From Zoogloea dura (lineage in GTDB: Bacteria > Pseudomonadota > Gammaproteobacteria > Burkholderiales > Rhodocyclaceae), in assembly GCF_012927165.1 (NCBI RefSeq), contig NZ_JABBGA010000002.1, positions 124,001 through 188,000 of the forward strand: 64,000 bases of DNA, in the 5' to 3' direction. The notes beneath the pieces are model-generated. The model was not told the origin of the DNA, did not search any database, and worked only from the letters and a program-made list of their open reading frames with translations. Below, piece by piece: positions 55,088 to 58,809 of the stretch (the first letter of the stretch is position 1; every line of letters begins with the position of its first letter). The position numbers were made by a program, and so were the translations under genes.

Positions 55088-56788
55088 TCAGGCTGCACAG
55101 TCAGCGAAGAGCGTCTCCACCGATACCGCCCCGCTGCCCTCGCGGACACGGATGCGGTTGGCCGCGCTGACGATGGCACGGATCGACGCCGTCACCGTGC
55201 TGCGATCCATGCCGGCGCCGAAGGTGCTACCGGCCACGCCCTCCATGGCCACCTCGATCATCGCCATCGCGGCAGCATCAGCACCCTCGCCCATCGAGCG
55301 CTCCTCGAAGCTCTGCACCCGGATCGGCATGCGGAGGGCCGCCACGGCCGCCTCCACGGGGCCGTTACCTTCACCGCGGATCTCCATGCAACGCCCATTC
55401 ACCTCGACCTCGAGGCGGATGCCCTGGCGCTCGCCAGCCTCGTAGAGGTGATGCCCCATGTAGCGCACCGGCGTAGCGGCCTCGAGGTATTCGCGGCTGA
55501 AGAGATTCCACAACTGGTGGGCATCCACTTCCTGGCCGCTCTCGTCGGTGAGGCACTGCACCGCGGTGCTGAACTCCACCTGCATGCGGCGCGGCATCAC
55601 GAGCCCATACACGGTGTGGAGCAAGTGGGCTACGCCGCCCTTGCCGGACTGGCTGTTCACCCGGATCACCGAATCGTAGGTACGGCCGAGATCGGCCGGA
55701 TCCACCGGCATGTAGGGCACGGCCCAGAGGGCGTCCGCCTGCTGCACCTCGAAGCCCTTCTTGATGGCGTCCTGGTGCGACCCGGAGAATGCGGTGAAGA
55801 CGAGATCGCCGACGTAAGGATGGCGGGGATGGATCGGCAACTGGGTGCATTCCTCGGCCACCCGGGCCACATCGTTGATGTCCGAGAAGTCGAGGCCGGG
55901 GTGGATGCCCTGGGTGTACATGTTGAGGGCGAGGGTCACCACATCCACGTTGCCGGTACGCTCGCCATTGCCGAAGAGGCAGCCCTCGACCCGGTCTGCG
56001 CCCGCGAGCATGGCCATCTCGGCGGCGGCAACGCCGGTGCCCCGATCGTTGTGGGGATGCACGCTGAGCACGATCTGGTCGCGCCGGGCAAGATTGCGGT
56101 GCATCCACTCGATCTGATCCGCATAGACATTGGGCATCGCCACCTCGACCGTGGAGGGGAGGTTGATGATGACCTTCTCGCCCGGCCGCGGATCCCACTC
56201 CGCCACCACGGCATCACAGACTTCCTTGGCGAAGTCGAGCTCGGTGGCGGTGAAGGTCTCGGGGCTGTACTGGAGCACCCACTCGGTCTCCGGCTGGCTG
56301 GCGGCGAGCTCCTTGACGAGGCGCACGCTGGACACGGCAAGGGCCTTGACCTCGTCCTTGCTCATGCCGAACACCGTCTCACGGAACACCGGCGACGTGG
56401 CGTTGTAGATGTGCACGATGGCCCGGCGGGCGCCACGGAGGGACTCCATGGTGCGACGGATGAGGTGTTCCCGGGCCTGGCTGAGGACCTCGATGGTCAC
56501 GTCGTCGGGGATCTCGCCCTGCTCGATGAGATGGCGGACGAAGTCGAAATCGGTCTGGGAGGCGGAAGGGAAAGCGACTTCGATTTCCTTGAAACCAATC
56601 GCCACGAGCTTGCGGAACATGCGCAACTTGCGGGCGGCATCCATGGGTTCGAAGAGGGCCTGGTTGCCGTCACGGAGATCGGTGCTCATCCAGATCGGCG
56701 GATGGGTGATCGTGCGGGCGGGCCACTGACGGTCGGCGAGGGCGACCGGGGGAAAGGCGGAATACTTGGTGTTCGGGTTCTTCAACAT
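55088..56788 (-). CDS. leuA: 2-isopropylmalate synthase (long LeuA2 type)
   Basis: 566 residues from ATG 56788-56786 ([23 protein letters not shown]), with AAAGGACAAG upstream. TIM-barrel domain with the metal and substrate motifs [15 protein letters not shown] and [39 protein letters not shown], then a C-terminal leucine-binding regulatory domain ending [12 protein letters not shown]. It condenses acetyl-CoA with 2-ketoisovalerate, the committed step of leucine synthesis. Preceded by a 300-base leader with leucine-rich short reading frames. The longer in-frame start overlaps that leader. Confidence 0.95.
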
Positions 56789-56925
56789 GATCTTGTCCTT
56801 TGCTTTCGTCGGAAACGGTTCGGGTGTTCGGATGCGGACGCAGGGCTGCCAGACTGCCGCGGGCTCGTGGCCTGGCAACCGGGGCGCAGTCGTAGGGACA
56901 GCAGGGCAAGATTCAGCGTGTTCAT
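56782..56925 (-). CDS. Second leucine-rich upstream reading frame, overlapping the leuA start
   Basis: 47 codons from ATG 56925-56923, with CGGAG 7 bases upstream. The first residues [15 protein letters not shown] hold six leucines in the first 13; the rest is Arg/Ser/Pro-rich and unlike a folded protein. Its TGA (56784-56782) overlaps the first codons of leuA by 7 bases, an arrangement that would couple leuA translation to it. Whether it is translated is unknown. Confidence 0.4.
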
Positions 56926-56962
56926 GGCAAAGCTCCGTTCAGCAAGCGTGTGAGGACGCAAT

Positions 56963-56978
56963 TCGCCCGGATGGGCGA
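56963..56978 (-). promoter_or_regulatory. Leader hairpin 3:4 upstream of leuA
   Basis: TCGCCC-ATCC-GGGCGA on the minus strand, a 6-bp stem with a 4-base loop. The GCCC of this stem could instead pair with the GGGC at 57013-57016, just past the leader peptide stop, giving mutually exclusive folds. No T-run follows. Confidence 0.45.
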
Positions 56979-57017
56979 CAGGGAACGACAACAGGAGGGG
57001 GAAGAGATGTGTGCCCG

Positions 57018-57089
57018 TTAGGGCAGCAGCAGACCCAGCCCGGAGAGGGCCAGTAGGGAGAAGAGATTGGTCTGTTGCGCGGAGGTCAT
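57018..57089 (-). CDS. leuL: leu operon leader peptide
   Basis: 23 codons from ATG 57089-57087 to TAA 57020-57018. Eight leucines, seven of them in the last 12 residues (LFSLLALSGLGLLLP); codons are CTC, CTA, CTG, CTC, CTG and three consecutive CTG just before Pro-stop. CTA is a rare choice in this GC-rich genome. A GCCC-TAAC-GGGC hairpin (57013-57024) spans the stop codon. The strong promoter lies 9 bases upstream and there is no ribosome site, so the transcript is probably leaderless. This is the layout of a ribosome-mediated attenuator for leuA. Confidence 0.8.
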   Translation of the reverse strand: MTSAQQTNLFSLLALSGLGLLLP

Positions 57090-57098
57090 GGGCAAAAC

Positions 57099-57126
57099 AG
57101 TATCAGGACTTGCTCAAGCGCGTCAA
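57099..57126 (-). promoter_or_regulatory. leuA operon promoter
   Basis: On the minus strand TTGACG (57126-57121), 16-base spacer, GATACT (57104-57099). Initiation 6-8 bases downstream would fall within three bases of the leader peptide ATG. Confidence 0.75.
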
Positions 57127-57166
57127 TCACTGATCCCGATAAAAAAATGACTATCCAGGACTGCAC

Positions 57167-58615
57167 CTAAACCACGGCGCAGGGAGAGATCTGGTAGCCG
57201 GGTCCACCCGCCATGGCGCTGCCCGGCTCGAGCTTGAGCATCCGCGTCCCCAGACGGGCAAAGACCTGCCCCCCAGCCCGCATGAAACCCGGCTCGCATA
57301 CCACCCGCACGCTGCGCCCCCGCACGGCCGGCTCACACAGGATGCCGATCCAGCTCCGCTGGCCGTCGTCAAGCACTACCTGCTGGGGATCGCTGGAGAT
57401 CGTCTGCAGCCCGACCGAGACCCGCGCACGATCATCGAAACGGACACGCCGTACCAGCGCGAGCACCCAGCGGCCGGTCTCGCCCACGTGGGCTCCGACC
57501 AGGGCCCCCACCCGACAGACATCGGCGTCATACATAGCGGACTGGACGCCGAAGCCGTTGCGGCTTGCATCCAGCAGGGTCCAGGCTGCTGCCGGGCGAA
57601 GCAGGGCATCCCCCGACAACTGGGAGCGGATGAAACCCAGCCCCGTCGCCAGGGCCAGCTGCCCCTGCACGACATGACGGCGAAACTGGCGCATTGGCGG
57701 CTGAGGCCCCCACTGGCGCGCCAGATGCCGGACGGTGGCGGTGACCGATGGCAGGCTGATCCCGGCAAAGGCCGGCGCGGACGAGGCATCCGCCAGGCTG
57801 CGGGCGAGTTCGTCCAGCGCCGGCAAGGCATCACCGGGGCGGAAGAAACGCAGGTCGCCGGAGGGCTTGTCCGGCAGGGTCAGGCAGCGGCGCGGCGGCG
57901 CCAGCCTGTCCAGATCCACCGCAAACTGGCTGCCGGACAAGGGCTCGGCGCTCAGATCGAGGGCCGGCTGCAGGTAGCGGACCAGCTTGTCGGTGGCCTC
58001 GATGCGCTCGGGGGAGAGCTGATCGAGACTGGCGCAATGCAGGGCCACCAGGCGCACGAACTCGCGCTGGATGGTGGAGCGGGTCTCCCGCCCCTCGCGG
58101 ATATTGATGGGCACATTGAGCCCACCGACATTGTGGGCATCGCGAAACGCCTGCCCTGCCCGCTGCCACACATCGCCAGGCAAGCCGTGATAATCGAAAG
58201 CCGCCCACTTCATCTCGCCAGCAGCGCTGCGCACCGTGCGCAAGCGGATCTCGGCGCGCAGGGGGTCGTCGACGGGCAGCGCGAAATCGGTGGCGAGGCC
58301 ATCCAGCACGAGATCGTAGGCCCGCCCCAGGCTGGCGTAAAAATCCTTGCCGAGCGCCTTGTAGCGCAGGCTGCGCGAACCGAAGGCATTCGACAGGTAG
58401 AGCCCGGCAGCCTGACGCAGCTGAGGCTGGGCCGCCTCATCGAGCACTACCACCAGGCGGGCCAGTTCGGCGATGGGCAGTTCGGCTTCGTACTGGAAGG
58501 AATCGAGCCAGCGGATCAGCTCGACAATGGCCGTGGGCGCCGCGCTGGTAGCGATGTCGGTAAGCGCCTGACGGAGCTGTGCGGGCTCAAGAAGAGGATG
58601 CTGATTGTGAACCAC
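57167..58615 (-). CDS. Large protein with putative C-terminal PilZ (c-di-GMP-binding) domain
   Basis: 482 residues from GTG 58615-58613, with GGAGG 8 bases upstream (an ATG five codons earlier lies inside that site). Residues 1-300 are helical and not recognised. From about 305 the sequence carries RQFRR (RxxxR, about 309-313), then after about 35 residues LLDASRNGFGVQ (DxSxxG, about 349-354). WVLALVRRVRFDDRARVSVGLQTIS follows, the order and spacing of a PilZ domain. I infer a c-di-GMP effector; the output is unknown. It lies between leuA and thyA, divergent from thyA. Confidence 0.65.
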   Translation of the reverse strand: MVHNQHPLLEPAQLRQALTDIATSAAPTAIVELIRWLDSFQYEAELPIAELARLVVVLDEAAQPQLRQAAGLYLSNAFGSRSLRYKALGKDFYASLGRAYDLVLDGLATDFALPVDDPLRAEIRLRTVRSAAGEMKWAAFDYHGLPGDVWQRAGQAFRDAHNVGGLNVPINIREGRETRSTIQREFVRLVALHCASLDQLSPERIEATDKLVRYLQPALDLSAEPLSGSQFAVDLDRLAPPRRCLTLPDKPSGDLRFFRPGDALPALDELARSLADASSAPAFAGISLPSVTATVRHLARQWGPQPPMRQFRRHVVQGQLALATGLGFIRSQLSGDALLRPAAAWTLLDASRNGFGVQSAMYDADVCRVGALVGAHVGETGRWVLALVRRVRFDDRARVSVGLQTISSDPQQVVLDDGQRSWIGILCEPAVRGRSVRVVCEPGFMRAGGQVFARLGTRMLKLEPGSAMAGGPGYQISPCAVV

Positions 58616-58809
58616 GGTGCCCCCCTCCATGACTGCGCTGCGCCTCCCTGACGGCCCGATCGAGATCGTTGATTTGTGCTGGGCGATGTTAGCACAAGCC
58701 CTCATGCCCATGCCGGGCACTCCCCGCCACGAGACACGTCGGCCACATTTCGCCCCGGCCCCTGCATCGGGTAGACTTGCGGGCCTTTACTCCCCCTGCC
58801 CCCGGAATC

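Follow-up and report, generated by a model that had tools for sequence, protein, structure and literature searches.

A candidate two-layer leucine sensor in the leuA leader of Zoogloea dura and other Pseudomonadota

The leader of the leuA gene in Zoogloea dura contains two leucine-rich reading frames in series, uORF1 and uORF2. From sequence comparison we propose, with moderate confidence, that this leader is a two-layer leucine sensor, with a second layer of the type of the actinobacterial LEU element that would act on leuA translation. The window is a stretch of 64,000 nucleotides (contig NZ_JABBGA010000002.1, positions 124,001 to 188,000), and all coordinates given here are positions in it. 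All parts of the leader are on the minus strand, which the original prediction for this DNA had left unstated. That prediction described one leader peptide followed by competing hairpins; it missed uORF2 as a conserved leucine leader, the hairpin P1 with its pseudoknot P2, and the pairing P0 of the uORF2 leucine codons with the leuA Shine-Dalgarno (SD) site. Comparison of loci brings out both frames, P1, P2 outside Zoogloea, the P0 complementarity, and the overlap of the uORF2 stop with the leuA start. The translation of both frames, the stalling of ribosomes, the direction of the effect and the role of the first layer are what we infer.

Results

The leuA locus and its promoter

The leuA gene (55088..56788) encodes a 2-isopropylmalate synthase of the yeast type (TIGR00970, 762.6 bits with a cut-off of 697.4; PRK03739, 876.7 bits). 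Its closest named relatives are from Zoogloea, at 84-87% identity, and the next is at 72%. The promoter TTGACG-16-GATACT named by the original prediction is present exactly, at 57126-57099, and it is the sole sigma-70-like site in 56201-57800, where shuffled sequences have a mean of 0.2. By eye, the same layout (TTGACG, an AT-rich box, and an ATG a few bases later) appears in the Zoogloea relatives and in many other leader loci. The uORF1 ATG is 9 bases 3' of the -10 box, which places the predicted transcription start 0-4 nt 5' of uORF1 and supports the claim of a near-leaderless leucine leader peptide before leuA.

Taken as a whole, the leader shows no more folding than shuffled sequences do (z -0.35). 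In a 10-kb scan against Rfam 15, Leu_leader included, the leader has no match at E 1; a scan of 371 bases at E 10 returns one chance match, on the plus strand, to a lncRNA family and far below the gathering score. Upstream of the promoter, a 493-aa reading (57167-58648, minus strand) has no Pfam match at E 1, and a longer reading (57167-58720, minus strand) has no NCBIfam match.

The second frame and the P1 hairpin

The second frame, uORF2 (56782..56925), starts 92 bases past the uORF1 stop and 3' of the hairpin named 3:4 below. It is preceded by the Shine-Dalgarno sequence GGAG (56933..56936), invariant in 16 Zoogloea leaders, and its stop TGA overlaps the leuA start as ATGTTGA. Judging from the sequence, uORF2 is probably translated. 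Over the 12 codons before P1, its frame has on average 3.77 leucines, and the other frames have 0.68 and 0.58 (53 loci, with one Zoogloea kept and 15 Zoogloea, L142 and L183 left out). Most uORF2 peptides have L-x-x-G-x-x-A in common.

Directly after the leucine codons comes P1 (56844..56880), an 11 bp hairpin in which GGTTGCCAGGC (56880-56870) and GTCTGGCAGCC (56854-56844) pair around a loop. Amongst 15 aligned sequences, five of the 11 pairs have changes on both sides. R1, a covariance model that we built from the leucine codons and P1, scores the window P1 at 77 bits by construction, because the window is part of the model. At E 0.01, R1 matches 10/369 genomes of the class, 31/399 of the order and 9/299 of the phylum, in genome sets that overlap and with a few chance matches expected per search. 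A yeast-type leuA adjoins the element in 39 of the 43 loci from these searches (a few of which come from the same genome); four weak loci, with E from 6.9e-4 to 7.8e-3, are without an adjoining leuA. We kept 70 Pseudomonadota loci, and in all of them leuA is found 40-239 nt downstream of P1. Six of the 70 are weak R1 matches of 16.6-27.4 bits (L131, L137, L139, L141, L142 and L143). Element counts leave out L178, L179, L180 and L182, which have no leuA in the locus, and two R1 matches (the second in G673, and the one in G721) are outside the locus set. A pairing of CGACTGC in uORF2 with GCAGTC in the hairpin was dropped because by eye it is not kept across loci.

The P2 pseudoknot

In P2 (56834..56860), the P1 loop GCGG (56860-56857) pairs with CCGC (56837-56834). 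The window version has only 4 bp; alone it is at chance level, and it fails a test that requires 5 bp. The support for P2 comes from other genera. The complement of the loop pentamer is found no more than 45 nt downstream in the own locus in 41 of 49 cases, where permuted partners give a mean of 25.4 (0/5000 permutations reach 41) and shuffled sequences a mean of 11.7 of 49. The loop pentamers, set by hand, include GUGGC, GCGGC, GCGAC and others; for GCGAC, the partner is present in 5/5 of its own loci vs 1/44 of the others. The 49 loci are what is left of the 70 after setting aside 14 Zoogloea and the seven of 54 non-Zoogloea loci without a readable pentamer (L116, L117, L120, L131, L137, L142 and L143). 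Eight of the 49, the window among them, have no P2 partner. Pseudoknot tests of single loci are weak (p<0.05 in 9/66), and in such a test the P2 of L131 has 9 bp and a p of 0.002. Longer versions of P2 may be present in alphaproteobacterial loci, as in L131 and, by eye, in L128, L130 and the Shinella locus L187.

The P0 base stem

P0 is a predicted base stem between uORF2 and the leuA ribosome site. Its 5' strand, ATCTTGCCC (56904..56912), is in the leucine stretch of uORF2, and it is complementary to the leuA Shine-Dalgarno region AAAGGACAAGAT (56790..56801), the 3' strand, which is assigned from sequence and fold. In the window, P0 has 6 bp, a mismatch, and 2 more bp. For 55 loci, we compared the pairing of the 42 nt before P1 with the own leuA SD segment against permuted partners, and obtained a z of 8.06 (0/2000). 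In the 42 loci in which the hairpin is less than 90 nt from leuA, z is 7.0, and in the 13 in which it is farther, z is 2.9. Three control pairings over the 55 loci have z values of 1.1-1.9; one sets the SD against a segment 5' of the leucine stretch, and the other two set the leucine stretch against leuA coding sequence and against sequence that precedes the SD. Without 11 near relatives, picked by hand and leaving two genera with two loci each, z is 6.9 for 44 loci. The signal per locus is modest, the own helix ranking among the best 10% of partners in 14/44.

Folding points the same way in Zoogloea, where counts are for 14 of the 16 leaders (L013 and L014 left out). In 11/14, window included, the main predicted partner of the leuA SD is the leucine stretch of uORF2; the exceptions are L009, L012 and L015. 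When the uORF2 stretch is masked as if by a ribosome, accessibility of the SD-AUG region goes up in 12 and is unchanged in 2, and the mean moves from 0.31 to 0.41. With uORF1 or P1 masked instead, the mean hardly moves (0.33 and 0.32).

We propose that the compact P1/P2 structure, placed between the two P0 strands, brings them together, so that the default state of leuA would be closed. When leucine is abundant, ribosomes would move off uORF2 and let P0 form again. Under leucine shortage, a ribosome stalled at the leucine codons of uORF2 would cover the 5' strand of P0, and the ribosome site of leuA would open. The original prediction had allowed for an output unlike that of the enteric leu operon, access to the leuA ribosome site being one option, and the P0 complementarity points there.

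The first layer and classical attenuation

The first layer would consist of the near-leaderless uORF1 and, after it, a hairpin that lacks a U-tract. uORF1, MTSAQQTNLFSLLALSGLGLLLP (57018..57089), is the frame of the original prediction, with 23 codons, eight leucines, and the ending CTG CTG CTG CCC TAA, and every one of the 16 Zoogloea leaders in the alignment (the window and 15 others) retains it. Across these leaders GGTCTGCTGCTGCCCTRACGGGC is invariant except for R. The nucleotides of the last part of uORF1 hardly vary, which indicates a constraint on the RNA as well. Over the locus set, a leucine-rich uORF1 is found upstream of P1 in 36/55 loci when one Zoogloea is counted, or 51/70 with all Zoogloea; on the reverse strand there are 2/70.

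Both predicted hairpins are present exactly. Hairpin 1:2, TGCCC-TAAC-GGGCA (57012..57025, with the core GCCC-TAAC-GGGC at 57024-57013), is at the uORF1 stop and is kept in 16/16 Zoogloea, with its outermost pair a G-U in one and with no double changes. Hairpin 3:4, TCGCCC-ATCC-GGGCGA (56963..56978), keeps its outer five pairs in 15-16 of 16 and its innermost in 10/16. Covariation in the two is almost nil, one pair of 3:4 being double-changed in 2/16. As the original prediction said, 3:4 has no T-run, and we find no terminator-like T-run site anywhere in 56201-57800. In four other Zoogloea loci (L003, L007, L011 and L015), ATCTTTTCT comes after hairpin 1:2 as a weak terminator-like site, which is absent from the window. 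After the uORF1 stop there is also a pyrimidine tract, CCTCCTGTTG (56989..56998), whose CCTGTTG is kept in the 16 Zoogloea and which, to judge from its sequence, is a possible Rho loading or anti-SD site. By eye, similar tracts are found in several other genera; in this cross-genus comparison of leaders, L066 and L076 were read from an internal start, and L036 is not included.

The strongest rival to the two-layer reading is classical transcription attenuation with a Rho-dependent or otherwise unusual terminator, in which the choice between hairpins depends on a ribosome on uORF1, with uORF2 and its hairpin in a secondary role. The conservation of uORF1 and the pyrimidine tract past its stop favor it, and so does the position of a hairpin after uORF1, which has modest support (z 2.68, 20/3000 permuted, 19 loci). 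A looser test that pairs the uORF1 leucine run with the following tract gives a z of 1.80 (131/3000, 24 loci). Further, six distant loci (L137, L139, L142, L143, L181 and L183) have a strong hairpin with a T-run between uORF1 and P1, so that there the first layer looks like a classical attenuator. These six, with stems of at least 12 bp, are selected from 13/70 loci flagged by a scan for T-run hairpins; of the other flagged hairpins, that of L168 is by eye before the promoter, that of L158 has 10 bp, and the rest have 5-7 bp. The swap between 1:2, 2:3 and 3:4 named in the original prediction is not supported. The 2:3 pairing has only 4 bp, its outer pair is a G-U or broken in 4/16 Zoogloea, and across 19 loci the pairing of the uORF1 end with the 5' arm of the next hairpin is at chance (z -0.08 against permuted partners; the 19 are the loci without a strong T-run terminator, after removing L137, L142, L143, L163 and L181 from 24). 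Classical attenuation also leaves P1, P2, P0 and the uORF2 leucine codons unexplained, and the window has no T-run terminator. We regard it as unlikely to be the main mechanism here. Under the two-layer reading, the output of the first layer in the window is perhaps through Rho.

Other pairings of the first layer were tried. The uORF1 leucine run with the ribosome sites of uORF2 or leuA (z 0.18 and -1.37) and the post-uORF1 tract with the uORF2 SD (z -1.55) were both rejected. The segment just upstream, intended as a control for the latter pairing, has a z of 5.18, which we read as the hairpin after uORF1. The tract with the leuA SD has a z of 3.37 (3/3000 permuted, 24 tandem loci). Separately, four loci from Burkholderia, Paraburkholderia and Pandoraea (L038, L041, L070 and L079) have uORF1-type leaders and no R1 match at E 1. 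In three of them (L041, L070 and L079), CCGGTT/AACCGG and CCGGTCG-like repeats look by eye like different competing hairpins.

The uORF2 stop and the remaining alternatives

Since uORF2 ends on the leuA start, ribosomes finishing it could reinitiate at leuA, an effect opposed to the direction we propose. In a second alternative, the main role of uORF2 is to pass ribosomes on to leuA through ATGTTGA, and the pseudoknot only tunes the flow. In line with it, uORF2 stops exactly at leuA +7 in 31/70 loci (16 Zoogloea and 15 others, including L086), and the length changes between hairpin and leuA within Zoogloea preserve the frame. In 18/70 loci uORF2 instead ends inside the hairpin, directly after G-x-x-A, so the stop/start overlap is not essential; the remaining loci stop elsewhere. 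(In this count the frames of L183 and L086 were unusable: by eye that of L183 ends at +7, and that of L086 has no start codon.) Reinitiation also leaves the P0 complementarity unexplained, and we find it improbable as the main role of uORF2. As a separate observation, the sequence of L154 suggests a frameshift or an assembly error: its best match to leuA begins only at residue 73, and its uORF2 continues in frame into the N-terminal part of leuA.

In a third alternative, P0/P1/P2 are the binding site of a regulatory protein and the uORFs are incidental; protein binding was proposed for LEU in Actinobacteria, with a helicase-domain candidate (PMC1262725). This would suit a compact, conserved pseudoknot, but the frame-specific enrichment of leucine codons before the hairpin and the tandem leucine uORFs speak against it, and we consider it very unlikely.

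Lrp/AsnC neighbors

Amongst 22 other genomes of the genus, 15 carry leuA with the uORF1 leader, and one contig (L016) ends too early. In the other six (L018-L023), leuA is more distant (about 68-70% identity), and a divergent Lrp/AsnC gene takes the place of the leader; the Lrp/AsnC copy of L018 matches Pfam AsnC_trans_reg with 72.3 bits. Over 109 leuA loci, a gene of the Lrp/AsnC family is found within 1200 nt upstream in 51, and it is divergent in 50 (the exception is L079). None of the 30 loci with uORF2 and hairpin has such a gene, vs 51 of the 79 others (Fisher 6e-11; the class "other Leu uORF" in the locus table was assigned by hand). We take this exclusion as an association and not as a count of independent events, because the loci are related by descent and similarity was the basis of their selection. 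Within Zoogloea, the hairpin and Lrp/AsnC arrangements swap together with a different leuA copy.

Discussion

The leader has features in common with several known systems. Like the attenuator of the enteric leu operon, which we take to be the Leu_leader family (RF00512), it places a leucine leader peptide before leuA; it differs in having no U-tract terminator, no supported antiterminator and no match to that family. In translational attenuators of the ermC/cat type, a stalled leader ribosome uncovers the ribosome site of the gene. A stalled leader ribosome would likewise expose the leuA site here, with the differences that the cue would be leucine supply and that a hairpin/pseudoknot joins the pairing strands.

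The closest likeness is to the LEU element, predicted in 2005 upstream of actinobacterial leuA with a mode of action found paradoxical (Seliverstov et al. 2005, PMC1262725). Both are found upstream of leuA with a leader frame of leucine codons, and no classical terminator is described for LEU. Both have a base stem between the leucine codons and the leuA SD (z 8.06 here, and the window is among the Zoogloea leaders that fold this way). LEU also has a conserved pseudoknot; here one is seen across the locus set (41/49), and the window has a candidate of 4 bp that fails the 5-bp test and is at chance level. The element here differs in belonging to Pseudomonadota, in usually standing behind a second leader peptide, and in a uORF2 that often ends on the leuA start. 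The likeness described here is one of anatomy, as compared through the text description of LEU. Applied to two Streptomyces leuA loci (L184 and L185), which are plasmid copies and not the housekeeping leuA, R1 finds no full-length match; the plasmid leuA of L184 adjoins an adenylation-domain gene. In Streptomyces coelicolor, leader mutations behave in a way that is not classical attenuation, according to Craster 1999 as cited in PMC1262725. The leuL1/leuA leader of Streptomyces lividans (PMC8079986) is also a leaderless leucine-rich leader with no typical intrinsic terminator, and it differs in having one leader peptide, MRFGLLLLSCRGEGL, vs two here.

In the literature surveyed, which includes passages of PMC6123439, PMC2659441, PMC4046766, PMC4833913 and PMC8079986, we find no paper on a leuA pseudoknot or tandem leader in proteobacteria; Vitreschak 2004 may cover some of the first layer. 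What is added over the LEU element is the tandem leader peptide and the overlap of uORF2 with leuA.

More tentatively, we put forward the conjecture that the leader represents an unrecorded, ancient RNA element of Beta- and Alphaproteobacteria, with serial leucine leaders of which the first would act on transcription and the second, combined with a pseudoknot of the LEU type, would open the leuA site; LEU itself would then be a translational switch sensed by the ribosome. LEU features in proteobacteria, which in some lineages stand beside a leader with a true terminator, offer a tractable test of ribosome sensing. The element adds a candidate family for RNA libraries, and it suggests a mode of leuA control where no Lrp-type regulator adjoins. 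If the proposal is true, the leucine cue would be read twice on one transcript.
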